DNA of 64,000 nucleotides, from NCBI GenBank assembly GCA_037043015.1, contig CM073327.1:12568727-12632726 (forward strand), written 5' to 3'. This DNA is from Bryum argenteum. Its lineage: Eukaryota; Streptophyta; Bryopsida; Bryales; Bryaceae. Position numbers and translations under genes: made by a program. Below are positions 19,965-64,000 of this stretch, piece after piece; the first letter of the stretch is position 1, and the number at the start of each line of letters is the position of its first letter. The notes beneath the pieces were generated by a model, which saw only the letters and a program-made list of their open reading frames with translations, was not told the DNA's origin and made no database searches.

Positions 19965-21557
19965 CCTCCCTATATCAATTTAAGGTATAATTTATAGAAT
20001 TTACATCCTTTAATAGAAGATCCTCACAAGAAACTATTAAGAGAAGGATAGAAAAATACCAATCTCTCATCAACAATACTGTTAGCAAAGGTTAAAGATA
20101 TGGACCACTAGTAGTAATTACAGCAGGTGCCAAAGCATGCACATACATCCATTCTGTAAAAATCCTAAAAACCAAAACTATTATACCAAATAACTCATCT
20201 AAAATACATCTAGGGAAGTAATATAATTGTTATATATTGTGCCATGTTTATAATGGTATGAGAACCACTACCAATAGAGGTGCAATAAAAAAAATACCAA
20301 GTGTAAAAAAAACAAAAAATAAAAATATTCTCCTATTGTCTTTGAAGAATACCAAGATTTTAGACAAGTCTTGATGATATTTAAAGAAACACTTTCCAAA
20401 AGCCTCATGCCGATTGGAAAAAGGAAAATCCAATCTTTTTTGAAAATTTTTGGTGTTTTTCAGAGAAAAAGGGAGTAATCACCTTTATTTACAATATAAA
20501 CTTTGTCACAATATAGAGGCCTAGGTTGTTGGAATTTCATGCTTCACTAGCCTACTAACTCGATAGCAACATATGATTGTAATGATGCTCAAATATTATC
20601 AAGAAGAATTCAACCCAAAGCATCGCTAGAAAACAACCATATCTTTACTAGAGAACTCAGTCATATCAACAATGTGACTGAACAAACAAAACCAACCTTC
20701 TAGTTTTATATAATGAAATACACCTCCAAATATTTACTTTACAATTTATTAATTCTCTATTTTTTGTTATATAGTCTTCACTTTGGAAGGAGTTAACCCC
20801 TAAAGTCGACTAAAGCCAAATTCCAGTTGTTTGGGGTTTGGTCAACCTTTTGACTTACTATTTTTAATTGGCATGAAGTTGAAACCTTTTGCAAGTTGGA
20901 AAGTTCTTCCTAACCTTATCAAAATTTCATTTCACGCTTTGAGATTCCTCATACTTTATAAGATGTTCACTATTAACCTCTAACTTTCCAAGAAGCCCGA
21001 AAGAGGTATTTGCACTTTTGGGCAACCTAAATGAAGTAGTTAAGAGTAATATTTTTGCCTAAGATTTTTACCGGGTGCTCCTTATATTGCAAAGTGTATG
21101 TGGTAAAATTTGCAAAGTCAAATTCCAATTTTAAAACCTTCATGCAAAAAAGTTTAGATTTCAAGTCGAAAAAGGGCAGCTCAAAAAAGTAATTTTTTTG
21201 ATTTTTTTTTTTTTTTTTTTTTGAAATATATTTATTACTAAATCACTACTCAAATTTTAAAGTGATCGAAGTCAAAAATCTTACCAATTTTAGAAGGGCA
21301 GCCTCCAAAAGTTTCAAAACCAATCTTTGCAACGGTTGGAAGTTCTAAAAAAGGAAAAACAGTTTGTTCACTCCCCTGGGAGTGCATAGAAGTAGATGAT
21401 TGCAGTTATGAGGTTTCAAGCTCCCAAAAATCACCAAGGGAAGTTAGGGGTTAAGGTTTGAAAACACTATTTTAAATTTTTCCAGAAGTGCCCAAGCTGC
21501 ATAAAATCTGCCCAAAATGAAGTAAAATGTAGAAACATCAAAAACTCACAAAAACTA

Positions 21558-33192: not shown

Positions 33193-33627
33193 TCAGTTAC
33201 ATTTTTATTTATCAAATTAAATGTAAAATTCTTTATTATTGCTCCGATGTTTGAGTATTGTATTGGTATGCTTTTCTTGATTGTGATTTGATGTGCAAGC
33301 TTAATCTTGAAGTACGACAAGTATTTATTTCATAGTTTTCACAAATGCGAATAAAGAGAGCTTCTTCTCCTTTTCCACATTGCAATTCTAACCACTTGAG
33401 CTCATCAATACAAAAAATGCATTATAGGTATTACACAACAGATTTAGAATCCTTTCTTATAAATATCTTGCACTGCACTTAATATTGTTACAGTACTACT
33501 TGAACATTCAACTTCTTAAAGCCCAAGCAACCATTGTATTACCATTTCAGATGTTAAGAAGCTATATTGGACACAATAAGTCAGCTTTCAAATAAAATTA
33601 AATTAAAATACATAACTAATTTTATTT

Positions 33628-33698
<71 letters not shown>

Positions 33699-34427
33699 AA
33701 AAATTTGATGAGTTGGGATCAGTCTCATCAATCTTACACAATCTTATCTAAGTACGTAGATAACAAGTCTTTTAACACATACTTGGCAAGGTGAGCTTGG
33801 AGTTAAAAACTCACTATTCTGTGAAACTAATGGTCTTTTTTTTAGGGTTGTTGTGGCTTTTATACAATTCAACTTGTAATAGACTCTATCAACAAATTTC
33901 ATCAAATTTCAACTACTACTTATATACATAGAATTTCTTCCTGATGTTTGAAGCTCATGTCACTTAGAAGCCGCACCAAATAAAATAAAAATGAAAATTA
34001 TGTGAAGAAATTTAACCACTTTGATAACTTTGAAACACCAAGGTCTTAAATCGTCTTCTTAAGTGAAACTTCATGGAAGTTACAATGTACTTCAGAACAC
34101 ATCCAAATCCTTTGCTAACCTCGGATATTTTGGGGTTTATGAACGATCCAAATCAGTGATTCCTTGCAATGTAGAAAACAATAGTAAATTATTATGGTAC
34201 ATTGCAAGTGCTCAACATGGTTGCAGAAAGTCTCATCATAAAAACTCAAAATGTTATATCCTCATGAATGCATACACATGTGATGATAAACCACCATAAA
34301 GTACATTACAACTATCACTATTTCTATATATGTGCATATAACAAAGATGCCAATGTTATACACGACTGGAACTAGACCTACTAGGCAACTTAGGACTACC
34401 CAACCTATCTATTGAACCTCCCTATAT
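33193..34427. other. Block B spacer with (AT)n microsatellite
   Basis: Matches 18823-19964. An AT run of about 60 bp at 33631-33691 replaces the TA run of block A. No gene. Confidence 0.7.
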
Positions 34428-35367: not shown

Positions 35368-35623
35368 TTGAATTTAACATACCTCCATTTGAATACTCAA
35401 GCGTTTCTTTAGGTTTTATAGGTGGCATGAGAGTAAAAAAATTACATGGAAGTGTTTCCAACTTACCTAGGAACAAGGATGTAAAGAGCTACAAGTCAAA
35501 TTTGTTTTTACAGAAAATGCTTTATTTGGCCCTCAAAAAACTACTTACCCTTTCAACAATAAGATAGAAAAAAAGTTTTCTTCAACTTTGAGAATTACGA
35601 TCTGACAATTGGTAAGAAATCTA

Positions 35624-35630
<7 letters not shown>

Positions 35631-35717
<87 letters not shown>
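35631..35717. repeat. (AT)n microsatellite, about 86 bp
   Basis: Uninterrupted AT dinucleotide run. It is absent or much shorter at the equivalent place in block A (about 21975). Confidence 0.95.
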
Positions 35718-35720
<3 letters not shown>

Positions 35721-38044: not shown

Positions 38045-38187
38045 GATGACTTTAGGGGTTAATAGTACTACCCCACTATTGTTATGTCCTGTGAACATAT
38101 CATCAAGGATAGGTGGAACGAACACTATACGCACACAAGTCCACAAGGGTCTGGTGTTTTTCTTCTTCTTATCAGATCTTACTAAGT
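38045..38187 (+). repeat. Direct repeat flanking the Harbinger element (right copy)
   Basis: Right-hand partner of 35940-36105; it ends in the same ATCAGATCTTACTAAG. Confidence 0.75.
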
Positions 38188-42198: not shown

Positions 42199-45100
42199 TC
42201 ATTGTTGTGTAAGCTTGGGATGAGTAGCAGCGTAGATGGACGACGCGGGATCAGGACTGAGATGTCGGAACAGGGCCTGGACATCTGGCCGCAACTCCAC
42301 AACAGATTTGGCGCATAACTCCAGCGTCGCAGGTCTAGGTGATCCTTGCGAATCCCCTGCCTCTTGCGCTTCCATCATCACCGCGTGATGCCTGCACGTG
42401 CCACGATTACATTAAGCAATTGTTTAAAAACAGAAGACACGATGGCGTTTGATTCACACAAACCACAAAGAAAAGGTTTCAGGATTTTTTGACGAAGGGA
42501 CAAAAGATTCTTGACTTACAAAAGATCGACAAGGTCGATAATGTCAGTAGCGACTGTTGATGAAGACGCATCGACAAGGTCGATTATGTCAGTAGCGACT
42601 GTTGATGAAGACGCTTGAGAATTGCGAGGGAATACATCTGCCAATATGGTGAAGAGTAGAGCAAGGGTCTGCAAATCATTCATGAAAACTAGCACATCAA
42701 TTTCCAGACAACCTGCGAGCCCCATAAACTTCTCTGAGTACTAGTCCGTTAACAATTCTTGGAATAAACTGATACCTTTGCAAATAATGGACGTGAGATG
42801 AGCAGTCGAGGTAACAACGGCCCCATTATCCTGTAAGCCAATCGTAGATGCACCACGGACACAAATGGTCTCTGTTGTGTGATGACGGAGTGCATGCTCT
42901 CCAGCCATTCGAATGGCAGATTGGATTGTAATGTATGCAGCAGTGTCACACTGTTCGCTGCAACGATGACCACAAGATATATCTTCAATCATACAGAAGC
43001 AATAGGAGTGATCAACACCATCTTTCGAGAAAGAGAAGCAAAAAGCTCGAGGGAGGCATTTCACATTTTACATTGCAAAGCAACATGCACATTCCTTGGC
43101 ATTTCGATTCACGTACATGAACCAAAACTCTTACCGAGAACGGTGGCCGTGTCATCCCGAGCCCCCCAACTTGGGTCCCACGTTGAGTAACCGAAGATGG
43201 CATCCAGATCTCTCGACTGCTTGTTGGGATCTGTTAACCACCAACAGTCTTTCTTTATAATACAAGCTATCTCTGTATATATAGGACCGTGGAACGCGAT
43301 TGGCAGCTGCGCCAGAAGAAGCCCACAAGCTTGGATCATCAAAGGCGAGTGCACTGCCTGAGCCGACGACCCTGAACAGCTCTGTCCGGACAACCCATCT
43401 CCGCTCCCTGCCGAAGGAGACAGCGGAGTTTTCGGAGCTCCACCCTGGAACGAGGTCGGAAGCTTGACTGCAATGTGAATTAGCATGGCCACTATTTGGT
43501 TCAGAAGAGGGGGAGGTAACGAGAGTAGTTCCACCACTGCAGTCTCTAGCAACAACTGGTTGTAGGAACCCGGATCCTGATGAAGGTAGAACGCCTTGTT
43601 TACTTCTGCGGTGTTGGTGGTCGTGTTAGCCGCTGCTTGGTTCCTATTCATAAACCGGGACGATTGAAGCCCATCGGCGCCCATCGCTTGTGTCCCTGGC
43701 TTGCCATGCAGAGGTGGAATGACATTGTTCACCAGTCCCACAAGCAGGTTCTGGAAGTAGTCGTACGAGGGACTATTCCCTGAATTCACTGATCTAATAT
43801 GCTGAAGGAATGCCTCGGAAAATGGTATCTGCAGTACACCCAAACATTAGATGATATGAAGTTCTAAGAATAAAAGTTGTATGTTTTTGACGAGAGACAT
43901 AGCGCAGTGAAACTTGAGCGTGAAGATAGTTCATACCTTAGGTAGATCCAAGCTGCTGAGAAGGCGAAGGACTAGTTTGGGAGGAAGATGTCCATAAAAG
44001 TAAGCGAGTGTGTCTCGGACAAAGGAGAAACGAGTTGGGTGATGGAGGATGAGTGGAGCGTAGACGTGAAGCAAACGCTCAGCAGTTTCCGTGGCATCGT
44101 TCTCAATTAAGCGGTACACTATCAGAGGTATCACTGGCAGTGCTCGAAGACACATGTCGTCAAAGAACAAGGGGTACCTGCAGCCATTCCACCCCAATTC
44201 ATCGGAGCATGCTAACACTCTCGATTTACCGAAACCAAGCCTACTACCGTTTACGGGACACAAAGGACGTTTGTTACTGAAAAGCAGAGCTGGTGTGAAC
44301 AAATCTCACCTGTCTTTACCAGTGAGGTGGGAACCAAGGGCCTGTGGGTAATCTGGGCGTTGCAGTGGTCCTGACTGCATCCAGTTCTCGGTCTGACCTC
44401 GCTTATTACTGTAAGTCTGAACCCGCTGCTGAAACTCCGGCCGATCCAAAAGCAAATTCACCTGATAGATAAATGGGTAAGCCTTCTTAGTCATCTGGTG
44501 CCAGAATACCACACTCGGCAACATAACAGTACAAATGAGGAAATACAAAATCATACCACCACACGCAAGGCATGAGCGTCGTCGTCCCTATCTGTAAGAG
44601 CGAGCAACACGATATCAAATGGCAGAAGCTCTTGAATCCACATAAAGTATGCAAGGCCACGACTGGTCGCCAAGAGCAAGTTCTGAATACAAGAAACATC
44701 ATATCTTATCAATTTCATCTCCTTTTTTGCGAAATTGAAATTGAGAAACTCGAATCTCACAAAAACTAATTTCACATGTTTCTAGCTTTCGGTACAAGAT
44801 GATTGAAACCCCATATTCGTTAAATTGGCCCAATCCCCTTCATATTTGGCCGCACAGTATTTAGATGAATGGACTAAAATGAAGCATAGTGAGGGTCCTT
44901 AATACAATAGTTATGGAAAATAGAAATACTTTTGGTTGCTATACTTAATTTTAATCTAAATATCTACATGGCATTTTCTTCATTTATGCTAAACACATTA
45001 TTTCAAGTGGTCAACATAATAGGGATTGGCCAATTTAACGAATATGGTGTTTTGATTAGAATCACAACGGTAGACTAACTTTTCAAACTCAGATCGATAG

Positions 45101-48100
45101 AGTTTGTGAAGTTGTATTGTTGTGAAGAAAACAGCAAAGTATTCACGTACAAGTAGCATCCCACAACTTTGACTGGGAACGTCGTAGACAAAAACCAGGA
45201 ATGGACTGGCTGTTGCCATTTCTGCCCACAAGCATATACTTGATATACATACGAAACCTCACACTGTTCTGATCTGATACAGAATCATGGGGTCGCTAGA
45301 AGTCTATGCACCTGGAGTGATTGACCAAGATTGAGCTGAATATGGATGTTGTTAAGCAGCACATCAACCATGTTGTACACATTCGTAGTAACCTCCTCCG
45401 GCGACAGTTCTTGCAAAGCTCGGCCCTGCAACAAACATGTGTTGGTCAGGTCCTACTAAAGGACAAGGACCACAGCCACATGACAGATTCAACGACAAAG
45501 TCTACATCACAGTTTTCTATCAACGCATTTTCAGACGATTGAAATGGGCAGAACTGAAATTGCGAACGGAAGAAGATGTGAAGGAACAACAGTATTAACT
45601 GCACCAAATGGAAGCTTACAAGATTTACAACGCTGATACTCTCAGGACGGTCAAATTTCATCTCCATCCAGGCACCTGCGCAAAGGAACTGCCGATGCTG
45701 AGGAAGACTGTGCGTGATGTATTGAGACACATACCCAGCTGGGTCTGGATTATTTACATGTTGTGACGACAACAGTTGCCGACAGTGACCCATAACGGTT
45801 GATTCAGCCTGCAGCTCATTCAACCAATGCACCTCAGCTCACATCAAGGTTCAACTCTTAATAAGGTGTTCTCACCGTCCTTTCTGATAAATTAACTCGC
45901 AATTATGCCATTACAGGAGTGACAAAGTGAAGATCGACTAATTCATCAACTTGAAAAGAAAAAGATTACCTGCTGCCAAGCTTGAATGACCAGATGCCGT
46001 TTATCGATCCGAGAGCTCAATGTATCCCTCAAAACAGGAGGGAAATGTCGCATTGTCTTATCAGACCATGTGTGCTGGCTGTCGGAAAGAATCTGCTCCA
46101 ATGCTGGCTTTAGGATAACCATCTGCTCGCAGGCGGCTATTCCTCTAGTCTTCATCGTGAACGCCAAGTTCAACACCATAGTTCTATTCAGAGTCTCTGT
46201 GAAATCTGTCGAAGCCCCCTGCAAAACAATGCCAGAGTTAAGGCCGTTTGACTTAAAACTAGATACTGCGATCCCACAGGAAGAGGCAGGTTCTCTGAGC
46301 ATGTAAAAAGCAAACCAGTTATCACGTCCCACTATATTGTAGAGTCCGTACGAGCTTGGCATTGACCAGATGTATGCTTTAAAATTTGCGAAGAGAAGCA
46401 CACCTTCAATTCTTTCTTCACAGGCAAAACTTCCTTCAGGTTCAGAATGAGATTCATCCCTAGATTCTCAGCCAAACGAAACAGACGATGCTCTCCTCTC
46501 CTCACTTTCACCACTATGACAGTTTTGGCCATGACAAGTATAAGCTTCCTCAACTTGTTATGAAACCTGCCACGTTGATAAGATAATACGTTACGAAGCA
46601 ATTCCCATCAATTAAAAAACAGATACTGTCCGAGAACGGGAGTAACTTGAAATTCAAACATGTGGGTCACGTAACAAGCAAGACCTGCAAGACGACGACT
46701 GTTGAAAACCCATTCATTAGAAAAAAAAAATATCATACCGATAGAGCGGTAGAAGTCGATAATTGAACAACTCAAGCAAGAGGAGAAGAACGCCAGGCTT
46801 TGCCGCCCGTGCTGGCAACCTCTGCGTCATTCCCTGTAATTGAACTCTTCCATGAGTTGGTATGATGTTAAAGCGAAAAATGTTCAGCAAATCCTACAAC
46901 TGCCAACTCCAAAGTTAGCAGGTCTAGTTTTAGCGAAGTGAGACCTCCAATACTTTGAACTGGAAACGTATCACATGTATACTAGCCCAAATCACATCGA
47001 AGAGCATACATTGAGGTGATGCTGAAACAAGTTTTGAGGAGCAGCCAACAGAAGTCGCACGTAGGTCTCAACTATGGCTATGCTTGGAACATACTGCACA
47101 CATCCATCAAACCAAACATGGGTCACTTGCTCCCAGCAAAAGATCACTTTTTAGAAATTGCATGAATTTCTTGTACACTACCAGAGACCTTTCCTAAATA
47201 GGTCTCGGTGACAACACTCCGTGACGAACGTAAGAACGTCTTCCAGCAGGTTATTATCTCCAATGCTATAGCTAAAAACCATGATGTACATGGACTACAC
47301 AAGACCATGGCACAGAATCACCACTTCGTGCATGTTCACTCCAAAGTACTGGCGTATATATGAGCGTATCGAAGAAAATGTCTTCCCATACCTGGCCAGC
47401 AAAAATTAGCTCCTCAATCTGCGTCAAAAGGTGCAGACATAGGTGCAGCGACAGACCAGAAAGCAGTGTCATTGGCAAAGGCCGCGTTTCATGTATCAAG
47501 GACAACCGGTCCCCTCCGAGCATGATCTCAGATACACCACTTGACCTGAACCATGTCATCAGAGCATCACTTACAGGCTGAGTCATTGTATTTGAAAGTA
47601 CCCACACCATTCCCATTGCATTCTCATCCAGCTGTGCATAGTCTAGCACCCTCTCTCCTGCATGAACAGACCCGCAATATAAGAAATAAGACAAGATAAC
47701 GACAACTCAGATGCTCCATTCTCACAAGAACAGCGAGGTCTACGATAACAGGATTCCAGCTACACTCCAGGTGGAATATGCGTGAACAAAGAGAGCCGGT
47801 TGGCACCTTTCATAGCCTGCTTCCACCACTCGTCAATAACCTTGCTCTTCTTCTGGTGTTCCTGCACTCGACTACCATGTAGATTCTCCATCATGTTGCG
47901 GTTGATGGACCACAGCCGGAGTGTCTGGCTGCTACCAACGAAATCCAACAGCACTGCTTGGGCCGTTGTGTTACTTGCTTGCTCCACAGACCGCTCTACC
48001 ATATCTAACGACAGGATCTTCCCAAATGTCTCCACCTGAAAATGCCCTGAACCAGAGTAACTAAGCATGGGATATAAATCCATGCAAGAACTAAACATTA

Positions 48101-51100
48101 AGTCAATGAATGCCATACGGCATAATTTAAGGATTCTCTATCATATTTTAATTTTCGGCTGCTTTTGAAGTATAAGGTTGCAAATTACTAAATCACCTGT
48201 GAATCAGAGCCTAATGCAGATGTCACTATCTCAAGCCGGAATACTCGGGCTAGTAGCCACGTCACATGATTACTAGCCATCACAATTCCATCCGCAAAAC
48301 GCACCGCCAGCTTGTCAATAAGCTCCAGAAAGTCAAGGCACCCGGTGCTTGTAAAAAAGTAGAACAGATCTGCGAACATTAACCACTCCTGCCAACGACT
48401 GGCTTCGGTATTGGCTGTGTTTGTGCTGCCTGCACAAAATGACGTTTGTCAGCACGAAAGGATCTTCACTTGAGCCACCTCTGATATTGATGCCTAATAA
48501 CATATATACCCAACTCACGGAAGATTTCAAATAGGTGCCTGAGCGAAGAAAAAAGAGGACTTCCAAAAGGGATACTCTATAAAAGCCTTAGACTGTCACC
48601 ATACTGATACTGGTAACTTCAGAAACGGCTGCAGTGTACGACGCAAAGGACATAACCTGTCGGCAGTGGCTGCATAAGCTCCATAACACGCTCCACTACA
48701 GCATCGCACGTCATTTCTGCTGAAAACTCCAGAGAAGGTTGACCCACGTACAAAGGACCTGTTCTGGGTCCCATGGTCTGGGACCCTTCCTTGAAACGAG
48801 GAGCAAGGACTAGCACGCGCTTCCACCAGTCGGTTGACACACATCCGCGCAGGGCATGTCGCAAACACCGCATGGCCTTCTCCCACTCTACAGTTCCTCT
48901 CGGTATGGCTGTCGCGATGTCCTGAAATGTTCACATCCCTGTAAGTAAAACCGTTTGCAAGGGCCCGCATTCATTCAGAACGAAGCGCACCGATTCCATT
49001 TAATTCAGTAGCATAACAAGTAAACTATTTTGGATGTAGAAGATTTCTGAATAATTTCAGAATGGAGGGTATATCTGGATGCTTTACTATAGCAGTTAGT
49101 ATAAATTATCTGAAAAGGCATGTAATGACAACACTTCAGAGTCCACCAAAGCTACCTCGGACAGACAAAATCTTACACACACTGAAGACAACTATTAAGC
49201 GATGTCACGTTTTTCGAGCGTGTCCTAGAGTGCCAATATGCATCACATGTAACATCGGAAGTATCAAGGACGAAACTCTATCCCGACATATAAGAGAGAG
49301 AATTGTATGGTACAGCTGACACATTACATACTGTATGTGAGGCCGGCGTTCACAAGCCAACATTGATACAAACCTCGCCATGAAGAAGTTCGCCCATTGT
49401 ACCAGGGTAAGTCAGAGCAGGAAATCGCAATGTTGTAAACGTAGGACACTGCAAGTGCTGGTCTAATGGCTGCATCTGCAGAGCGATCTTGTCACGCCTC
49501 CGGTGCACCTCCAAGAACAAGGCGAACAGCGCCTCATCGTCTGGCCATCGCTCAACCTGCCAATTTCAGATCGGACGAAATGTAAAGAGCCTAAATCTAT
49601 GTGATGCACTTGTGATTGCTACTTAAGAATGAATGTGTCTCGTAGCCGACAGCACTGATTATGAGATGCGCGGTTGGTAATTGTGAGTGGCAACGGGCAT
49701 TCAGAAATACATTTGTAAAAATCGGAAAGTACAACAAGGATTCGAAAATTTAAATATCCTAAAAAAATCAAGCTAGAGTTGAAACAGAACCAGATTTCGG
49801 TATTAAGGCTAATCACCTGTGGCTGAGTTCCTAGGTGCAGTAGAGCATAAAATGGAACTCGGCACTTGGTCTCATCGATCAGCGCCCAAATCACATCTAC
49901 ACAACTGCGTAACCACATCCGTGATTCCAGCTTCCAAATGTATGACCTGCTCCCAGCATCCCAAGTCTGGATCCACTTGACAACTTGCAGAAGGATATCC
50001 AGACAAGTCACAGGCTGTAGCTCAACTTCCAGGGCAGCCACCATCACTCTGCACACTAGAGGTCGCAACCAGTTTATCACCCTTGATCCTAATACACTAC
50101 TGCCACTGTTCGACGAGTACTCAACACCAGAATGAGCAGGGGATGCTACTGTGCTTCCTTGAGCAGAAGATGCCATCAGGTTCCCCGAAGGTGACGGTGA
50201 CGCCGGGGTTGGTGTTGGTACATTAGTGCCTTGCATCATCATTGCCAAAGGTCCAGCTGCTTGAGAACTTGTCGTCCCAACATTCAGTCCCTGCTTAGTC
50301 CCTGTCGTTGACCCGTTCTTTTCAGCTTCTTCAGCCGCCCGTTGCAGAATGGGCAGGAAAGAGTCCCATCGGACAACCCCCATCTTGACCAGCATTTGGA
50401 GAATCCGCAGCAGAAAGTCCGACTGCAAACCATGGCTGCTGCATTGTACCAGCAAAGATGCCAGAACCGCTTCGGTCACAGCCCGCCATTGTTCTAGATC
50501 CTTCACAACCAACATGTCCGTAGAGTTATTCTACCTCAGAATCCTCAAAGTACCCAAACAACGTTCAAGCTAGAAACGCAGGATCTTAATATTTAAGCTC
50601 GGACTGGGAGACCGATGTACAGTAGTGCAACTTCATACAATATACTTTGACCTCAAGAAATGTGTGTCATGTTGTTTACCACTACCAGCATGTGAATTTA
50701 CCGACAGGCTTATTTGAATTCTAGAAGTGGACATTTTACATACTCGGAACAGCTTACATTCTTGAATTACAAATTACTGAAACAATCAACATCGCCGTAT
50801 TGACCAACAGTTTTCACTCACCGTGAACAGAGACTGTAGCTGCGAAAAGTCGGACGAAAACTGTTCCTCGCTTGGAGCTTGCGGTCTGCTTACTGCAGCC
50901 ACCCGCTTTCGAATAGCCAATGATCTGCAATGGCAAAAAACAAAGACGCAAATTGAGACTTAACGAGGCTAAAATGCAGCATGTAAGTAACTTAAGGATG
51001 ATAGTTGAGGTCAACGCGTTCAATAAACTACTACTACGGTGACGAATAGCGAGACTTACGGATTTTCTCTTCGATCCGCTCTACTATTCAAGCTCCGCTG

Positions 51101-51672
51101 CAAAACCGAAAAAGAAAAGATTAGATATTAACAAGAAAGTTATACATCCACTCCAACAGAGTACAAGAATTGCTAGCACAAAATGCAACACAGCAGATTC
51201 AGACGTTTCACAGAGATGACGATCAGCATCCATATCTGCTACACTATCTTCACTCCATCTCTTCAGTAACGCTTGCATTGTATTGAAGTAGTAGAGTATC
51301 GCGGCGAATTAGAATACAAAGAATCAACAACCGACGAATCGGTTCGATACCTCGATCGCGACGCTAGAAACATTGGATTATTGTCATGAATTCCAAATTT
51401 CAACAGAGATTCTAATTTGCAGGGATCCATTCCATCTACTCGTCTGCCCGATCACCTCGTAACAAGAAAATTACAGAACAATAAAAATCAATTCTCAAGC
51501 TCCAGAAGCTCCAATTCGTTTTCAATTCAATCATCTTAACTACAGTACTCGAATTTTTACTCAGGAGGGAATGCGAATCGGCAAGGAAGGAAGGGAGACT
51601 TACTCCCAGATAAACGTCGAAGAGGTCCTGGACGGCAATGCGAAGGCTGTTGTTAGTGGAGCTGATTTCCAT
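42199..51672 (-). CDS. MED23: Mediator subunit MED23, copy A (22 exons, complete)
   Basis: MED23 is a tail subunit of the RNA polymerase II Mediator complex in the nucleus. Exons from the start (plus-strand limits): 51604-51672, 51060-51097, 50822-50924, 49817-50500, 49374-49556, 48657-48921, 48197-48429, 47807-48035, 47392-47657, 47010-47093, 46739-46833, 46404-46566, 45970-46218, 45620-45808, 45312-45425, 44557-44682, 44310-44461, 43937-44177, 43135-43828, 42776-42957, 42520-42668, 42199-42391. All joins keep frame and total 1566 residues, close to the Arabidopsis protein. Recognisable blocks include FSSDFSQLQSLFTDLEQWRA near the start, WQEWLMFADLFYFF, IENDATETAERLLHVYAPLI, FVRDTLAYFYGHLPPKLVLR, YRIMGPLLPRLL, and the C-terminal SIYAATHPKL. 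Exon 21 holds a 15-residue tandem duplication. The largest late intron (44683-45311) has a MITE. Confidence 0.93.
42525..42614 (-). repeat. 45-bp in-frame tandem duplication in MED23-A exon 21
   Basis: Two 45-bp units (42525-42569 and 42570-42614) differ at one base and encode ASSSTVATDIIDLVD twice. The frame is preserved. Related MED23 proteins have one such stretch before the final helices. Confidence 0.9.
44807..45051. mobile_element. Small MITE in a MED23-A intron
   Basis: Terminal inverted repeats CCATATTCGTTAAATTGG near both ends (44811-44828 and, inverted, about 45028-45046) enclose 245 bp without coding potential. TTGA flanks it (44803-44806 and 45052-45055). The same intron in MED23-B is 176 bp and lacks it. 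The superfamily is not clear from such ends. Confidence 0.7.
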
Positions 51673-51930
51673 GACGCTTACCGGCAATCAAGGGCCATGG
51701 CATGCACGTGAAATTGTTCGATCAGATTGCTGCGAAAGAAACAGAGGTTCGATCAGCAACCCTAATGCTCTGTTTTTTCGATTTCTGGACAAGTGAGATT
51801 CTCTGCCGAAAACAGCACTGCCCGCTGCAGATACTACAGTACCGAACTAACCGATGTCTGCTGAAAAAGAGCGGATTCCGGAAAGCTGCAGGGACGCATT
51901 AACAATGGCTGGAAAGTGTTGTTTTGGCTC
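51673..51930 (-). promoter_or_regulatory. MED23-A leader and promoter, telo-box
   Basis: On the minus strand GAGCATTAGGGTT lies about 90 bp before the ATG (telo-box AACCCTAA at 51758-51765 in plus reading). The surrounding TTTTCGGCAG, GTACTGTAGT and CTGATCGAAC blocks match the upstream region of MED23-B, so the duplication included the core promoter. A short leader intron (acceptor near TTTCGCAG) is possible. Confidence 0.55.
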
Positions 51931-54800
51931 TTTGTAGAGGTGCTGGATAAAAGCAACAACAAGACTTTTTAACTTCTCAACAACAAGGCTCACATGTTCA
52001 TGTTTTTGGACAAAGGACGATCTAAATTTATATTTTTCTCTTTCATCCGTTATGAAAATGTGACTTTTAGTAAACTATCATATTTAATGGCTACGGTTTC
52101 AATTGCGATCATGTGATGTAAACAATGACTTGGCCCTTGCTAAATCAAGTTTTTATTACTTTTCTTATGCCCGTTCAGATTTAAAGTTTTGATTTAGTTG
52201 CCAAGAGTGCTTTGTAGTCTCAAGACGCTTTTGGTTTGCGTATTCATGCAATATTGATTGATGAAAATGAAGAGTTAAGAAATACAATTTATGTTTATTT
52301 TATATTGACCTCTATTGTTTATTTATTGAGCTCAAATATTTTTTTAACAACCTCAAGGATAAATAAATGAGAACATCAGACCCTTGTAGGGTTGGTGTGA
52401 ATAGAACGCCCGTTCCACTTACCCTTGATGATATGTCCAGAGGATATAACAACAATGACGTAGGACCACTAACCCCTCTTGGGGTGGCACGACCTAGAGA
52501 CACTTACTTTGGGACTAGAGATTTGGAAATCCTCAATTCTCCCTTTAATCATTGTTCATGACCAAAGGGTTAAACCTTATGATCTTGCTAAATACATTAA
52601 TTTTTAACCCCTAAGAGCCTAATTATCCATTTTATGATCAATATCGAATTTCGAGGAATTGTACGCAGATAAAAAAAATATTTTTCTTGGAATTTTTTTA
52701 ACATCCGAGAAGTTTGGTGAGTTGAGAACCACATCCAATTTACAAAACCTCGTTTGGATTCATTGATTGTTCACAATAAGCCTATGTACACAAGCAGGGT
52801 AAGGTCTACTTAGTGTATTTCAATTATATACAACCACGATTCTTTGTAGCGTGAAAACCTCAATTCCGTAAATGACATTATTCTTTGTGCCATTTTGGCT
52901 AAATGAATATTTTTGAGCGGCTATACAATACATGGTTGTTTTAAACTGTAGTTGAGAAAAATTGCTCCCCCATGTCAGAAATGGACAAAAAACAATGTTA
53001 CTTTTTTAATTTTAAGCACCCCAAAACGTCCCATTTTATGAGAATAGTGCCATTTTATTGGATTTGAGGTTAAAGTGAATACAATCTAAGGATCATAGGT
53101 TTGATGAATTAATTTTCTTTGTTCTTTGCCTATTAGTCCATGAGTTGGACTTTCCACATGGCATCTTAGGCCACAAAACAATAAAAAAAAAAACTAATGG
53201 CTTAAATCTTATATTGTTATGAAAGTGGAATCTGAAAGTGGATCTATAGTTACATGGCATGTCACGATCAAAAGTTCATACATACTTTAATGAATTATAG
53301 ATTTTCGATATGTGCAAAACTAGTTCATTTTAACGATGTCAAACACATCACATTCTGTCTCAAAATCTTAAAAAGTATATGCGGAAAGTTGAACATGCCT
53401 CATAGCAACTTAGATGTAAAAGTTTACATTTTGGGTGCAAACACTTTGGACCTTACAAAAAACAACATCTTCCTAACACTCTACCCAAAAAGATGGAAAA
53501 ATCTTAGGAGAAAAGTTATGTATAAGGCCTTGAATAAGTAACTTTTAAATTTACTTTAAAGTGATATTACGGAGTTTAGTCAAGAGTGATAAGAATGGAG
53601 TTGATAGAAGGCTAAAACAAAAGCTATAAACCAAAATTGATTGATATCAAGGAACCTTACGATTTAATTTTCATCTTTCCTTATTACCAAGTTGAAAAAT
53701 GGAAACAAACAAAAGATAAACATATAATGTTGTTTTGTGAGTCTTTTTATAGACCATATGTGTAAAACAATAGAACCATAGCGGATAACAAAATTCCTAG
53801 GAGAAATAATATTTAAGGTAGAGGCGCTCATTTCCACATTGGTGAAAAAGTGTGGTATTTTCACTAGGCTCTCAACTAATAAGTTTGATGGAAATCCTCT
53901 TGTAGAGCTCCGTAAAAAAACTGCACTTGTCCACTAGTGCCAACTAATTATCTAAAGCCGCCATATTAGTCACTTGAATCTGTAAAGTGTGCAATATAAT
54001 GTTATACTACTTTGTATTTGAACATGTGTTTAAATTGAGTTGATAAGTTCTATGTATGTTGATCAGTTGTTATAGGTTGCCTTCTACATGGAAATCAAGG
54101 GAAGGCCTAGATTTTTATTATAGTAGGTACTATCAACTTAAATGTTAAAAATCATGTATTCAAGGAATTTCATCAGAAGTAATATCTTATTTCTAATTAA
54201 ATTTCTTAAGTACATGCTAAAATATCTAAATGTCCTATCTCATATAGTTGAGACACCTTACATGGTGGCATACTTTGTTTAAATTTTAGCTCATGAACTC
54301 AATGCATCTTATGGTAATGTGAAGAAGAAACTCAAAATGGTTTTGAAGTAAACCGATAGCAAAGCTAAATTGCAAGCAATTTTTGAACATGAGGAAAGTA
54401 AGATAGAGATCGAACAAGTAGAATAGTTGGACTCTTTTACGACCAATTATGAAATTTTGAAGCTCAATTTATAGGTAGTTCAATAATGCCACCAACATGG
54501 CACGGTAAAGTACCACCCACATGTTGTTGCTCTTAATATATTGTAGGTGGAGCAAAACGTGCACAACACCACAAATTACTCACTAAACCTATTCAAGTAG
54601 GAGGTACATTATAACCCCCAACTTCCAATGTAATCATGGTGTACATTCTAGGTTTAGTAGTTTTGGGTGTACCAATGAGTTCCCTTATGATCCATAACTA
54701 ATTTTATATCAAATTAAAATTAATAACTCCAATTGGTCTAATCTCCCAATTACTTTGCACATCTTCCAAAATGATTATTAGTCTAACTCCCCCAATAAGC
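51931..54800. other. Spacer between the MED23 copies
   Basis: AT-rich and without a gene I can support. The frame at 52367-52561 (64 codons) has no recognised motif. The stretch 54590-54800 has faint similarity to the block A/B spacer (about 15110-15330), with GTGTACATTYTAGGTT in common, suggesting a shared old transposon family. Confidence 0.45.
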
Positions 54801-54805
54801 TACCT

Positions 54806-55062
54806 GATATGAATTTGAGCGGTTTCCGAGCCACTTACCATATGGTACCATTGGATTTGAAATTTGAACGGTTCTTAAGCCGCTTACTATATGGTGCCGT
54901 TGGATTTGAAATTTGAGCTATTTCTAAGCCACTCATGGTCTATTACCGTTGGATTTGAAATTTGAGTGGTTTCTGAGCCACTAACCATATGGTGCCGTTG
55001 GATTTCAAAATTTGAGCGGTCTCTAAGCCACTCACCGTACAGTACCATTGGATTGGAAAACT
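54806..55062 (+). repeat. 49-bp tandem array, about five units
   Basis: TTGGATTTGAAATTTGAGCG-like starts occur at 54851, 54900, 54949, 54998 and 55048, an exact 49-bp period apart from the last step of 50. Each unit includes TTTCTGAGCCACTYACCATATGG. Related words (TTTCCGAGCCACTTACTATA) occur near 31028 in block B. Confidence 0.85.
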
Positions 55063-55249
55063 AATTTGTATCATTGAGTGAAGATTACTAAACCTCCATT
55101 GTTCCAATTTAGAGCACTCTACCTTGTTATACTTAGTTGGAGAATTTTAATGATAGAAGGAAAGAGCAATGGCAAGTTACCATTTTAAATGCCCTCACCT
55201 CCAACTTCTAGACGATCAAAAGATACTAGTTGCATAAGGGAGTCCCTTT

Positions 55250-55491
55250 CTAAAAGAGCCATACCGGAGGCGCTTTTCGGCAGTTGTTAATCGTGCCGAG
55301 TACTGTAGTCCGCTCAGGCCAAGAACAGAGGAGTGCTAGACAGAGTTCGAATAGAAACTGAGCATTAGGGTTCCTGAACTCTGTTTTTTGCTTTGCAGTC
55401 ATTTTGATCGAACTTTCTTTGCCACGCTAGATTGCTTTCTCGTACAATGGCCTGGCTTGTTTCTTCCTCATGAAGCGCCACAATTTCGACC
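55250..55491 (+). promoter_or_regulatory. MED23-B leader and promoter, telo-box
   Basis: GAGCATTAGGGTT (telo-box at 55364-55372) lies about 120 bp before the ATG, with flanking blocks CTTTTCGGCAG, GAGTACTGTAGT and TTTGATCGAAC shared with MED23-A. It is likely to retain promoter function. Confidence 0.55.
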
Positions 55492-58400
55492 ATGGAGACC
55501 AGCTCCGGAGGTGTGCAGTCCCCCAACAGCCTCCGCATTGCCATTCAGGACCTCTTCAATGTCTATTTAGGAGTAAGTTTCCCTCCCTCTCCGAATTCGC
55601 ATTTCCTGTGTACTAGTTTCTTTAAAAAAATAAAATTCCTCGAGTACTGCACCTAAGATTATTGGATTGCGAACGAACGGGAGAGTTGGTGTGACTTTGA
55701 TTTTCTTGATATTCTCGAGGTGATTGGGCTCAGTGATTTTGAATAAGGAGAAGTATATGGAAAACTTGCCTGCGTATTAGTATTTCTGTTAGAGATTGAA
55801 AAGTGTGTGTTGAAGACAATCATCTAGTGCTCCTAGTCGTGCTGTCTAGTTATCAGATCAATACGTGATGTTTAATGTCAAGTGTTAGTTCATTACATTG
55901 TAATTCGAAATAATACACTGCAAGCGATAACGAAGCGAGTAAGGTGAGTGATGGAGGAAAGACAGCGTAGCAATTTTGATTGCTAATCGTCAACTTGTCA
56001 GCTCTATGTATTGTTTGAAGATGCTGTGTTTGCAGTTTGTGCTAGCTAAATATGGACTTTGTTGTTAATTAATCTTCTCTCTTTCGGTTTTGCAGCGGAG
56101 CTTGAGTAGTAAAGCTGATCGAAGAGAAAATCTGTAAGTCTCGCTTTTTATCATCGTATTGGATGAAGCGCTGAATTGCTGTTTCTTGTCGTAGGTGTTC
56201 AAAGAGTAACGCATTTTTAGCGTGCATTCTCTGTTCTATTTCTTTTCTTGTTATGTGTGATATTGTTGGAGGTGATCATTACTAACGCCCCCATCTGTCG
56301 CACGACTGGAGGTTACATTCTGGATAGCAGTCTCCTGAGGTCTCATTTTGTGTCTCTGATTTCTACCCTTGCAGATCGTTGGCTGTTCGAAAGCGGGTGG
56401 CTGCAGTAAGCAGCAGACCGCAGGCTCCAAAGGAAGAACAATTTTCGTCCGACTTCCTGCAGCTTCAGTCTCAGTTTACGGTGAGTGAGAACTGTTGATT
56501 AACATGGTGGCAAAGAACTAGTTTTTGTTGATTGGGTAAGCCAGAAAGAAATTGCGAAGTTGTTTGCCGCACACTCCGGAAGACAGGTCAGCGTAATAGT
56601 GTAAAGAGTTTTCAAAGCTTTCATTAGAGAGAAGTCAATCTTTGTGATACTAGTTTAGCCTTTCGTATCTCTTCTTGTTTTTTATAGAACAAGCGTCTCT
56701 GGACCGCATTACACTGCAATGGAGAATTTAGTGGTTCAGCGGTTCAGCGAAATTCAGAGAGAAGTTTTGTCCAGGGGCCTTCTCCATCGCACTGTAAAGA
56801 GGTCCTTAGTAATGGTAGCTTGATACTTTCTGAGTATCTATTCCTTATTTGGTTTCGCGACTTCACCTTAGTCAAAGGCCCCACCTTGATATCCCACAGT
56901 AGACCATCAAATGGACCACACTCACCGCATGATGCATCTTTAGTGTAGGGCCGCAGGCGTGGGCTTATTAGGATGTAATTATAAGTTGTTCGGACAGTAT
57001 GTCACAATACCCCTGACGGTAAATCTGAATTTGTTATCAATGGTAAATCACATGGCTGACATTTCTAAAGAGACAAATGGAAGGTGCACTGTTGTATATC
57101 GGTCTTCCCGTATGCAGTATTGGAGATTGATAAATAAGTTAAATTTTAACTTGAAGTTCGTCTCTGTGCTCGGAGGATATAAGGTTAACCCTACGCATTT
57201 GTTGGCTGTGAAGGATCAAGAACAAGGGCGGGCTGTGACCGAAGCGGTTCTGGCATCTTTGCTGGTACAATGCAGCAGCCATGGTTTGCAGTCGGACTTT
57301 CTGCTGTATACTCTCCAAATGCTGGTCAAGATGAAAATTGTACGATGGGACTCTTTCCTTCCCATTCTGCTGCAGGCGGCTGAAAGAGCTGAAAAGAATG
57401 GTCCAACGACAGGGACTAATCAGGGACTGAATGTTGGGACGACAAGTTCTCAAGCAGCTGGACCTTTGGCAATGATGATGCAAGGCACTAATGCAACAAC
57501 TCCAACCCCGGCGTCACCGTCACCTTCGGGGAACCTATTGGCATCTCCTGCTCACGGAAATATCGTAGCATCCCCTGCTCATTCTGGTGTTGAGTACTCG
57601 TCGAATAGTGGCAGTAGTGTATTAGGATCAAGGGTGATAAACTGCCTGCGACCTCTAGTGTGCAGAGTGATGGTTGCTGCCCTGGAGGCTGAGCTGAAGC
57701 CTGTGACTTGTCTAGATATCCTTCTGCACGTTGTCCAGTGGGTCCATACGTGGGATGCTGAGGCGGACGGTAAGGATGAGGAGGGGAAAAGCAGGTCAAA
57801 CAATCGGAAGCTGGAATCACGGATGTGGTTGCACAGTTGCGTAGATGTGATTTGGGCGCTGATCGATGAGACCAAGTGCCGGGTGCCATTCTATGCTCTA
57901 CTGCACGACAGAACTCAGCTACAGGTGGTTAGCCGTAACGAAATCTGTTGTTGTTTTAACTGTAGCTGGATCCTGTAAAACCTCTTTTGTTGAAACCTTG
58001 TGAAAACTTATACATATGTGTGAATAAGCGTTGCTAAACACAATTACGAAACACGAATCTCATATTCCGTGCAGTCGGCCACGTGGTGGATTCATCTATG
58101 AAGTAACTCTTACAAGTGCATCACTTATTTGGTACGATCTGAAATTGGCAGGTTGAGCGATGGCCAGACGATGAGGCGCTGTTTGCTCTGTTCTTGGAAG
58201 TGCACCGTAGGCGTGACAAGATTGCTTTACATATGCAGCCGTTAGACCAACACTTGCAGTGTCCTACATTTGCAACATTGCGAGTTCCTGCTCTGACTTA
58301 TCCTGGTACAATGGGCGAGCTTCTGCATGGCGAGGTTTGTACCATTGGTGGTGTGCAGCCGTTGGCCTTACATAGGTTATGTAACGCATTAGCTGTTGAA

Positions 58401-61400
58401 TGGGGTCCTGGCTCTTATACCGGTTTGTTATTGCTTCCTTCCGATATCACACGTGATGCACATTATAATTTTGATTATTGAACCTCAGTGAGTGTTGATG
58501 TTGGTCTCTCCGAGGTTGCTTCGGTGGTCTCTGAAGTGTTGATGGTACATGCCTCGATCAGAAAATTCTTTGCGAAATGCTTTCATCCATCACGCTTTAG
58601 TCCAGCATCCATACCAATCCTCCTCCGTATTGCAATTTATCTGAAAATTTAGTATGCTTGTTTGACTTGTGATTTAGGATCGATACAAACCTTGAGTGGC
58701 CTCTATGCGCTTTTTTATCAATGAAAGCGGCTCCTTAGAATATATGAGTTGTAAACCGAGGCAACGGAAAGAGTGTTACTTACAGGGATGTGAACCTCTC
58801 AGGACATTGCGACAGCCATACCCAAGGGAACCGGAGACTGGGAGAAGGCCATGCGGTGTTTGCGACAGGCTCTGCGTGGATGTGTGTCAACCGACTGGTG
58901 GAAGCGCGTGCTTGTCCTTGCTCCTCGTTTTAAGAAAGGGCCCCAGTCCATGGGACCCAGAACAGGTCCTGTGTATGTAGGTCAACCTTCTTTGGAATTT
59001 TCAGCAGAAATGACGTGCGATGCTGTAGTGGAGCGTGTTATGGAGCTTATGCAGCCACTGCCGACAGGTTATTTTCTTCTCTGCCCCTCATGGTGCAGCC
59101 AGTTCTAAAAGTATCAGTATTAATTTGGCTAGTGATTTTGTGGAGTATCTATTTTGAAAGTTCACTTCTTCGCCCATACAGCTATCTGAAAGCTTCGGGG
59201 AGTTGTATCGTTGGCATCAGTGTTAGAGGTGCCTCAAGTGAAGATCTTCTCGTGCTGACAAACGTCATTTTGTGCAGGCAGCACAAACACAGCCAGTACC
59301 GAAGCCAGTCGTTGGCAGGAGTGGTTGATGTTCGCAGATCTGTTCTACTTTTTCATGAGTACCGGATGCCTGGACTTTCTGGAGCTTATTGACAAGCTGG
59401 CGGTGCGTTTTGCGAATGGAACTGTGATGGCTAGTAATCATGTGACGTGGCTACTAGCTCAAGTATTCCGGCTTGAGATAGTGACATCTGCACTGGGCTC
59501 TGATTCACAGGTAATTTAAGATTTCGCAACCCTCTACTTCTGAAGCAGCTGCAGATTAACTAAAATATGCTGGGTGCTTGCTAGCAACACAGTAGCTTAA
59601 GAGGGTGACTATCATTTAAACGTCACTGGTTGTGAGAGCTAAAGTTGACATATTGTTTAGTTCGTGCAATGTTCCATAGCCCATGCTTAGTGAATCTGGT
59701 CCAGGGCATTTTCAGGTAGAGACAGCTCGGAAGATTTTGTCTTTGAACATGGCAGAGCGGTCTGTGGAGCAAACGAGTAATACGACGGCTCAAGCGTTGC
59801 TGTTGGATTTCGTTGGTAGCAGCCAGACACTCCGGCTGTGGTCCATCAATCGCAATATGATGGAGAATCTACATGGTAGTCGAGTGCAGGAACACATGCA
59901 GAAGGGCAAGGTTATTGACGAGTGGTGGAAGCAGGCTATGAAAGGTGCCATCCGGCTACCTTTGTTCTTACAAGTTCTACCAGAATTCAAGTAGAGTATT
60001 GTTTTTCGTAGACCTGGCAGGTCCTTCGAAAATAGTGCTTCTTAGTTGTCATGTGTTTAATTCTAACAAAAATTGCTGGTTTGTTGGTGAAGGGGAGTGG
60101 GTGCTAGACTATGCACAACTAGATGAGAAGGCGATGGGAATGGTGTGGGTACTTTCAAATACAATGACTCAGCCTATTAGTGAGGCTCTAATGACATGGT
60201 TCAGGTCAAGTGGTGTATCTGACATCATGCTGCCCGGGGAACGATTGTCCGTGATACATGAAACGCGGCCTTTACCGATGACACTGCTTTCTGGTCTGTC
60301 GCTGCACCTATGTCTGCGCCTTTTGACGCAGATTGAGGAGCTAACTTTTGCTGGCCAGGTATTGAAAGAGATATTTTTCTTCACGCTTATACATACGCAA
60401 GTACTTTGGATCGAACATGGACGACATGATGAACATAGGCCATGGTCTTGTAGTCCGTGTAGATTATGCTGTTTAGTTGTAACAATGGACTTGGTAACTT
60501 GTTGGAAGACGTTTTTAGGTTTGTCCAATAGTGTTGTCAAAGTGAGCTTTGTAGTTTAGGTCTTTCATAGTGGATAAATAGTGAATTCTACAGAATGCTG
60601 GTCGTGCTGGATAAATAATGACTCATGTTTGATCTGATTGGTGTTTATGCAGTATGTTCCAAGCATAGCTATGGTTGAAACCTATGTGCGACTTTTGTTG
60701 GCTGCTCCTCAGAATTTGTTTCGGCATCACCTCAATGTATGCTCTTTGATGTGATTTTGACTTTATATGTCTACATGATGCGCTGCCAGTTTCAAGTAAT
60801 GGAGGTCTCACTTCGCTAAAGCTAGAGCTGCTATCTGTGGAGTCCAATTGTAGGATCTGTAGTTTTTCTCTCTAACGTCATATCAACTCATGTAATCTCA
60901 TGTAAGAGTTCAAATTGCAGGGAATGATGCACAGATTTCAAGCAGTGGTGTCAAAGCCTGGCGTTCCTCTCCTAATGCTTGAGTTGTTCAATTATCGACT
61001 TCTACCCCTCTATCGGTATGATATGCTTTGTTTGATGACTAAGCTTTCAACAGTCGCTGTCTTGCAGGTCTTGCTTGTTTATTAACCTACATGTTTGAAT
61101 TTCTAGGTACTCCCGTTCTCGGGGAGTATTTGTTGTTTAGTTGATGGGAATAGCTTTGTAACGTAATATCTATTCGATGTGGCAGGTTTCATAACAAGTT
61201 GAAGCAGCTTATATTTGACATTGCCAAAATTATCATAACGTGGAAAGTGAAGAGAGGAGAGCATCGTCTGTTTCGTTTGGCTGAGAATCTAGGGATAAAT
61301 CTCATTCTGAACTTGAAGGAGGTGTTGCTTGTGAAGAAAGAATTGAAGGTGAGATTCTCTCTGCAGACTTAAAACCATCCTTATCGTTTACACGCAGCTT

Positions 61401-64000
61401 AAAGTCCAAGCGCACACATGTTTTACATTATGGTGGTTGTAATGTTTGGTTGAGTTCCACACTTAAAAGTGCTTACAGAAACTGCCTACTCCTGCGGGAT
61501 TACAGTATCATGGCAAATCTTCTTAGTTGTGGCAACGTTTTGCAGGGGGCTACGACAGATTTTACAGAGACTCTGAATAGAATCATGGTGTTGAACTTGG
61601 CGTTTACGATGAAGACTAGAGGAATAGCCGACTTCGAGCAGATGGTTATCCTAAAGCCAGCACTGGAGCAGATTCTTACCGGCAGCCAGCACACATGGTC
61701 TGCGAAGACAATGAATCATTTTCCTCCTCTTCTGAGAGATGCGTTGAGCTCTCGGATCGATAAACGGTCTCTGGTCATTCAAGCTTGGCAGCAGGTTCAT
61801 CGTCTTTCTTCTATTTGATGAAAATTTTGATTTCAACTCTGTCCCTCCTGTGATGGCCTATTTTCTTTCGTACACCAAGCTTATCATCAGAGACGAGGGT
61901 TGGAACATCTTATCAGGATTTGAATCCTGCTGTAAGCTGAGATGGATTGGGTGTATGAACTGCAGGCTGAACCAACTGTGATGGGTCACTGTCGGCAAAT
62001 GTTGTCGTCACATGTAAACAATCCAGACCCAGCTGGGTATGTGTCTCAATACATCACGCACAGCCTTCCTCAGCATCGGCAGTTCCTTTGCGCAGGTGCC
62101 TGGATGTTGATGGATTTTGACAGGCCTGAGAGTATCAGCGTTGCAAATCTTGTAAGCTCCAAACTGGTGACAGTTGATACTGGTGTTCCTTCACATTCTC
62201 TTAAGTTCATCAATTCAGCTTTGGCCATGTCAATCGTCTGAAACTGCATTGATAGGAAACTGTAATGTAGACGTTGTAGTTGCATCATTGATATCGTTGA
62301 ATCTGTCATGTGGCTGTGGTCCTTGTCCTTTAGTAGGACCTGACCAACACATGTTTGTTGCAGGGCCGAGCTTTGAAAGAACTGTCGCCTGAGGAGGTTA
62401 CTACGAATGTGTACAACATGGTTGATGTGCTGCTTAACCACATCCATATTCAGCTCAAGCTTGGTCACTCCCTCCAGGTCCATAGACTTCTACTCACTTC
62501 ATGATTATGTCTTTTGTATTTCCACTGTGTATTGACCGTTGTGCTTCTGATCATCTTGTGCTGAAATGTAGAAATATGTGGATTTCAAGTTGGTGCTAAA
62601 ACTCAGTCACGAGATAAGGATATCTGTCTGAAAAGATTCTTGCTTTTTCGCAGAACTTGCTCCTGGCGACCAGTCATGGCCTTGCACACTTCATGTGGAC
62701 TCAAGAGCTTTTGCCATTTGATATTGTGTTGCTGGCTCTCACTGATAGAGATGATGATGCTCATGCCTTGCGTTTGGTGGTATGCGTCATTTCCCCTTGT
62801 TTGTACTGCAACTTGTACTTTTCTGCGTGTAAATTCAATCACGTTCACTAGTCCTTTGTGCACTCAGCTTTGTCCTAGCTATTCAATTTCATGAGCAGGC
62901 TTGATAGCGAGTGTCTGGTGATTGTAGTAGTAGTATTGCTGAGCAGCCTGTTTCCGACTTCTCGGTCTTCTATGCCTGTAACTTGAGCTAATTGACTCGC
63001 GCTAACGTTCCTATTCGTACTGCTGGAATCGTTTATTATTTTCACGAGGAATTCAGTATTGCGTAGTGTGGTATTCCTGCACGAGATGACTAAGAACCTT
63101 GAACCATTTTTCAGGTGGGTTTGCTCCTGGATCGGCCGGAGTTCCAGCAGCGGGTTCAGACTTACATAGTTCATCGAGGACAGACCGAGCACTGGATGCA
63201 ATTAGGACCATTCCAACGCCCAGATTACCCGCAGGCCCTCGGTTCCCACCTTGCTGGTAAAGACAGGTGGGTTTCGTTCCGACTTCTTTGCTCTTGCCCT
63301 TCAGTAACAAACGTTACGTGTGTCCCGTATCCGGTACTATATTGGTTTTTGTGAACTATTCTGTGTAACAGAATGTTGATGGTTTTAGTAACCTCAGCCG
63401 TGAAATGGCTGCAGGTTTCCGTTGTTCTTTGACGACATGTGTCTTCGAGCACTGCCAGTGATACCTCTGATAGTGTACCGCTTAATTGAGAACGATGCCA
63501 CGGAAACTGCTGAGCGTTTGCTTCACGTCTACGCTCCACTCATCCTCCATCACCCAACTCGTTTCTCCTTTGTCCGAGACACACTCGCTTACTTTTATGG
63601 ACATCTTCCTCCCAAACTTGTCCTTCGCCTTCTCAGCAGCTTGGATCTACCTAAGGTATGAACTATCTTCACGCTCAAGTTTCACTGCGCAATGTCTCTC
63701 GTCAAAACCATACAACTTTTATTCTTAGAACTTCATATCGTCTAATGTTTGGGTGTACTGCAGATACCATTTTCCGAGGCATTCCTTCAGCATATTAGAT
63801 CAGTGAATTCAGGGAATAGTCCCTCGTACGACTACTTCCAGAACCTGCTTGTGGGTCTGGTGAACAATGTCATTCCACCTTTGCATGGCAAGCCAGGGAC
63901 ACAAGCGATGGGCGCCGATGGGCTTCAATCGTCCCGGTTCATGAATAGGAACCAAGCAGCGGCTAACACGACCACCAACACCGCAGAAGTAAACAAGGCG
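55492..64000 (+). CDS. MED23: Mediator subunit MED23, copy B (exons 1-19, runs off the edge)
   Basis: Second MED23, head to head with copy A. Exons: 55492-55572, 56096-56133, 56375-56480, 57214-57924, 58152-58334, 58803-59067, 59278-59510, 59716-59944, 60093-60358, 60653-60736, 60921-61015, 61186-61348, 61546-61794, 61966-62151, 62364-62477, 62654-62779, 63115-63266, 63415-63655 and 63764 to the edge. Intron positions and phases equal those of copy A, the frame is open throughout, and no lesion is visible. Divergence is real (72 of 83 residues identical in exon 13). Exon 4 has nine extra residues (AEADGKDEEGKSRSNN region). From exon 18 on it is nearly identical to copy A at DNA level. Both copies may be active; the last exons are outside the window. 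Confidence 0.92.

Follow-up and report, generated by a model that had tools for sequence, protein, structure and literature searches.

A near-identical tract with sharp ends in two inverted MED23 copies of the moss Bryum argenteum, very probably a product of gene conversion

Two copies of MED23 in Bryum argenteum form an old head-to-head inverted duplication, and over a block consisting of exon 18, intron 18 and exon 19 they are nearly identical, while the flanks of this block remain diverged. Interlocus gene conversion between the inverted paralogues is the best explanation, and very probably the correct one.

Materials and Methods

The window, that is the whole stretch of 64,000 nucleotides that was analysed, corresponds to positions 12,568,727-12,632,726 of an 18.7-Mb contig (CM073327.1) in a genome of 258.8 Mb and 25 contigs. 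The DNA past the right window edge was added before the arm-to-arm alignment, giving a stretch of 103,421 bases in all. Exons of both gene models were set by hand at GT/AG sites that are open in both copies. Their placement was guided by the outline of the plant MED23 protein, and the genes are presumably of this plant type.

Results

The MED23 gene pair

Copy B was predicted on the forward strand at 55492-65430, of which 55492-64000 (exons 1 to part of 19) is located in the window, with 22 exons and 1577 codons. Copy A was predicted on the reverse strand at 42199-51672, with 22 exons and 1566 codons. According to these models, the start codons are separated by a spacer of 3.8 kb (51673-55491). 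Both predicted genes display a complete open reading frame, matching splice sites and a single, terminal stop. The two proteins share 1396 of 1550 aligned residues, and the outermost arm-to-arm BLAST matches pair 55524 with 51652 and 65662 with 41968. The Pfam Med23 profile (PF11573, cut-off 25 bits) was recognised in exons 1-17 of both copies (67.7 bits for B, 75.9 bits for A) and in the part encoded by the tract (29.4 bits). Solved MED23 chains also matched (E = 3.5e-5). A six-frame search of the genome with the Med23 profile gave one match of 24 bits, below the cut-off. The exon numbering and the MED23 identity given in the original prediction, which had been made from the window sequence, thus hold with the 22-exon models and the Pfam scores.

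A few features of the pair were noted in passing. Exon 21 of copy A (42668-42520) carries 45 extra bases, and a stretch of 15 residues is present twice in the protein. At the C-terminus (42199-42210 versus 65388-65430), copy A ends sooner than copy B, owing to a TGA in A in the place of a CGA in B. Exons 11-12 (B 60921-61348; A 46833-46404) show higher nonsynonymous than synonymous divergence, unlike the remaining gene: exons 11 and 12 display 10 and 14 nonsynonymous versus 3 and 3 synonymous differences, with dN of 0.156 and 0.119 and dS of 0.131 and 0.091, respectively.

The tract and its limits

When a single segment of low difference was fitted by likelihood to the alignment of the complete genes, 63422-64463 of copy B (forward strand, 1042 bp; 63422-64000 in the window) came out as the best solution, with a log-likelihood of -6330.4 versus -6711.7 without the segment. 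By alignment, this tract corresponds to 43129-44170 of copy A (reverse strand). The fit gave the very base at which the tract had been predicted to start, and the expected continuation beyond the window edge was found to amount to 463 bp. The two copies differ by 11 substitutions over the whole tract (4 transitions and 7 transversions) and by no indel: three are located in intron 18, seven are synonymous and one leads to an amino-acid replacement (A/P at 64082), the only such difference across 310 codons. Within the window, 63422-64000 aligned without gap to the reverse complement of 43592-44170 with 7 differences in 579 bp, exactly the number that had been estimated by eye, at positions 63619, 63691, 63708, 63740, 63856, 63881 and 63940 of copy B. 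As predicted, three of them (63691, 63708 and 63740) are in the 108-bp intron 18 (63656-63763), which aligns without gap.

The base-by-base alignment, extended beyond 64000, confirmed a step in identity and not a gradual change: 54 of the 100 columns just left of 63422 are identical, 1031 of 1042 inside, and 67 of the 100 columns just right of 64463. At the left boundary the copies differ in each of the exon 18 codons at 63416 and 63419, and at the right boundary differences at 64464, 64467 and 64469 are followed by a 20-bp gap. The tract is therefore a sharply bounded block of high identity, on either side of which the paralogues are diverged. Each end is no more than 7 bp away from a splice junction; the adjoining introns, 17 and 19, are 62.9% and 79.5% identical over aligned columns. 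Positions this close to a junction make up 6.3% of the total, and both ends would fall there by chance in about 0.4% of cases, a value calculated post hoc with the ends already known. Upstream, exon 17 (63115-63266) is 86.2% identical, in agreement with the predicted one difference in seven bases, and intron 17 was indeed only partly alignable (132 aligned and 16 gap columns).

Divergence inside and outside the tract

The drop in divergence concerns all classes of sites. Exons differ at 8 of 928 positions inside the tract versus 357 of 3725 (9.6%) outside, the latter with 129 gap columns, and introns outside differ at 30% plus 1750 gap columns. Synonymous differences amount to 8 in 227 sites inside versus 174.7 in 883.3 sites outside (p = 4.5e-11), a divergence of 0.036 versus 0.230; the count of 8 includes the codon split by intron 19, and 7 lie within the tract proper. 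For nonsynonymous sites the counts are 1 in 703 versus 181.3 in 2836.7 (p = 8.3e-17), and for 4-fold sites 5 in 164 versus 73 in 547 (13%). Intron 18 differs at 3 of 108 positions, while the other introns differ at 1211 of 4000 aligned columns (p = 6.9e-13); the 20 other introns are 57-88% identical.

Strong selection holding exons 18-19 alike would account for the single amino-acid difference. Such selection does not account for intron 18 and the synonymous sites, which are equally conserved, nor for the loss of identity at most 7 bp from a splice junction on the left and on the right. As introns and synonymous sites drop together with amino-acid sites, the pattern is not caused by selection on the protein, as had been argued originally, and we give this explanation practically no weight. 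In favour of conversion, a single amino-acid difference was counted over all linker-like stretches of exon 19, while linker-like stretches elsewhere in the gene differ. Regarding selection after the event, the ratio of nonsynonymous to synonymous differences (1:7 in the tract versus 181:175 outside) is not significantly different (p = 0.067).

A scan of silent codons also detected the block: its statistic of 22.0 was reached in none of 500 permutations (permuted maximum 15.4), and the best segment, 63422 to 64696, extends a few codons into exon 20. The longest run of silent-identical codons is weak evidence taken alone: it spans 64 codons, and the permutations gave a 95% point of 62 and a maximum of 98.

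A related fragment on another chromosome

A genome search with the whole tract gave a third match besides A and B, at C2:13483498-13483704 (207 bases, 92% identical). This match is part of a degenerate copy-A fragment of MED23 that reaches from exon 19 to intron 21 and consists of two pieces (C2:13483363-13483704 and C2:13476727-13477302) split by about 6 kb. The fragment is 90.6% and 91.6% identical to 43330-43002 and 43010-42427 of copy A and only 82.4% and 75.7% identical to copy B. Of 97 sites outside the tract that distinguish A from B, the fragment agrees with A at 82, with B at 10 and with neither at the other 5; it was therefore copied from copy A. On this different chromosome, tract-type exon 19 is joined to A-type intron 19.

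The fragment bears on the possibility of an assembly chimera, in which sequence of copy A was misplaced into copy B. Unplaced small contigs of round size (12,500 to 50,000 bases) point to a scaffolded assembly that contains some debris, which speaks for such an error. A misplaced copy, however, would be expected to be identical or allele-like, and not to display 11 substitutions with 7 transversions and no indel. Moreover, the 103,421-base stretch contains no N, the three genome matches to the full tract leave no diverged 'true B', and the assembly was probably obtained from a haploid moss plant. The exon 19/intron 19 junction of copy A is found independently in the fragment, so that an assembly error, if any, must be in copy B. 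Taken with these observations, a chimera appears quite improbable.

Probable direction of the transfer

The same fragment was used to address the direction of the presumed gene conversion. It differs from copy A at 13 of 202 positions (6.4%) in the final 202 bp of the tract and at 34 of 695 (4.9%) outside (p = 0.37). If the fragment had been copied before copy A was overwritten, a difference of about 14% would be predicted in the tract (P = 0.0005). The introns of the fragment differ from copy A at 21 of 364 positions (5.8%) versus 10 of 341 silent sites (2.9%) between the A and B versions of the tract (p = 0.097), which is suggestive of a fragment older than the exchange. Only if the fragment predates the exchange does it follow that A donated the sequence and B received it, a direction that we consider probable. 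At 64333, the single A/B difference of the tract that it covers, the fragment has the B base, in agreement with a later change in A and also with other histories. Two other indicators were discarded: third-position GC content was uninformative, being alike in the tract and the rest (0.545/0.519 in B, 0.545/0.534 in A), and the Pfam scores of exons 1-17 (75.9 bits in A versus 67.7 in B) were too weak.

Possible further exchange between the copies

A second, shorter tract is likely at 62294-62438 of copy B (forward strand), where the final part of intron 14 together with the greater part of exon 15 shows 2 differences in 145 bp, the first 70 bp being intronic. This segment starts beside a 17-bp gap and contains an exact run of 82 bp, 70 bp of it intronic. 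In introns 14-15, the longest identical run reaches 72 columns, while 1000 shuffles gave no run above 20. In a scan of introns only, outside the main tract, introns 14-15 scored best (28.7; maximum of 200 shuffles 12.9), followed by introns 9-12 (15.0) and introns 6-7 (12.8). Among exons outside the tract, the longest exact run is 88, with a permuted 99% point of 76 and a maximum of 97.

The main tract could accordingly be the sum of overlapping conversions, with other parts of the gene exchanged at other times. This is a variant of the gene-conversion explanation, and the odds of the two overlap. It draws on the second tract, on introns 9-12 in the intron scan and on silent divergence that is uneven among exons outside the tract (chi-square p = 0.0145). 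Exons alone, on the other hand, gave no significant second tract (257 of 500 permutations as high), the shuffles assume site independence, which gaps violate, and a short tract at 62294-62438 could be mimicked by a conserved intron element. Repeated exchange is thus a possibility that we regard as somewhat less probable than a history without it.

A further reading is that exons 18-19 form a self-sustaining conversion island, exchange being confined to homology islands between non-aligning introns. Each exchange would restore the identity that enables the next, a few blocks would stay alike and the remainder would drift apart. The ends within 7 bp of splice junctions, the likely second tract, and the higher divergence outside the tract of introns (30%) than of 4-fold sites (13%) bear on this reading, which we consider unlikely.

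Other MED23 pieces and repeats

Rearranged pieces of copy B (exons 4-9 with introns) were found at C7:11383910-11386431 and C3:27731608-27734191, their longest parts being 95.6-95.7% identical to B and 76-80% to A. Both have a common scrambled junction and shared flanks of about 3.2 kb and 6 kb at 95%; the two loci seem to represent a multi-copy element carrying captured MED23 pieces. A weaker fragment, from intron 1 to exon 3, is located at C5:8980579-8982081 (82-85% to B, 74-77% to A). The genome also contains dynein heavy-chain motifs at 14 places, 12 of which exceed the cut-off, in line with a plant that has swimming sperm.

Within the window, 14418-14687 and 21049-21327 are inverted copies of a repeat of about 280 bp, with 80% identity, and may represent a mobile element. 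The segments 33620-33702 and 35619-35718 are self-complementary, with opposite-strand matches to themselves and to each other at 92-100%. An inverted match of 106 bp (77%) links 38054-38158 in the left flank to 52372-52477 in the spacer between the MED23 genes.

Discussion

The original prediction had favoured a recent exchange between the inverted arms as the simplest reading, and the present analysis supports it, 'recent' meaning a silent divergence of about 2.9% in the tract (10/341 sites, 95% CI 1.4-5.4%). Silent sites change at 5e-9 to 1e-8 per site and year. With these rates the tract would be 0.7-5.4 million years old, a range spanning both confidence ranges. What has accumulated since the exchange amounts to about 3% silent divergence and a single amino-acid replacement.

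The exchange may have begun with a break or a stalled fork in one copy. For repair, the other arm, either of the same chromatid or of its sister, would have served as the template, and the flanks would not have been exchanged. In the simplest case, the break would have been in copy B and the template would have been copy A. The outcome would be the replacement of about 1 kb comprising exon 18, intron 18 and exon 19. The tract ends coincide with flanking introns 17 and 19 that barely align, and copying may have stopped there for that reason. Ends by splice junctions, next to poorly aligning introns, fit copying that stops where homology is lost. Crossing over between the arms of an inverted repeat inverts the spacer and alone would not homogenise the arms. 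MSH2 is reported to prevent homeologous recombination in Physcomitrella, which speaks against easy exchange.

Conversion is stated to occur mainly above 80% identity, with yeast tracts averaging 200-300 bp and about 500 bp in one study (PMC3924818); next to these averages, 1042 bp is long, which counts against conversion.

The process itself is already known, and the tract is a new, clean example of it. A review on Caenorhabditis reports conversion of adjacent inverted genes (hsp16, hsp70-7/-8), and 28% synonymous divergence is given just before its discussion of fog-2/ftr-1 (PMC3966223). As in those cases, the MED23 copies are neighbours in opposite orientation, tracts may include introns and exchange occurred at moderate divergence; unlike in the cases described there, the pair consists of a large 22-exon gene in a moss, with a 1042-bp tract and ends that can be read to the base. 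For Physcomitrella, concerted evolution of tandemly arrayed genes by conversion is suggested in PMC3045890 (citing Lang et al. 2008), likewise a case of neighbouring moss duplicates homogenised by conversion. That statement concerns the overall similarity of arrays, whereas the MED23 pair is mostly diverged with one converted block. Arm-to-arm conversion in Y-chromosome palindromes (PMC3403216) similarly involves sequence exchange between inverted arms of one chromosome; unlike those palindromes, the MED23 arms are mostly 80-90% identical and one gene long, and a sex-chromosome location is not shown. Among the matches listed in a literature search on MED23 duplication in moss, none dealt with this pair.

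The tract has base-exact ends between paralogues so diverged (13% at 4-fold sites, 30% in introns) that strand exchange would be expected to be difficult. Phylogenetic trees or age estimates for the MED23 pair that are derived from exons 18-19 would be misleading. With related species, the pair would offer a natural test of whether the loss of intron homology bounds conversion between inverted copies.
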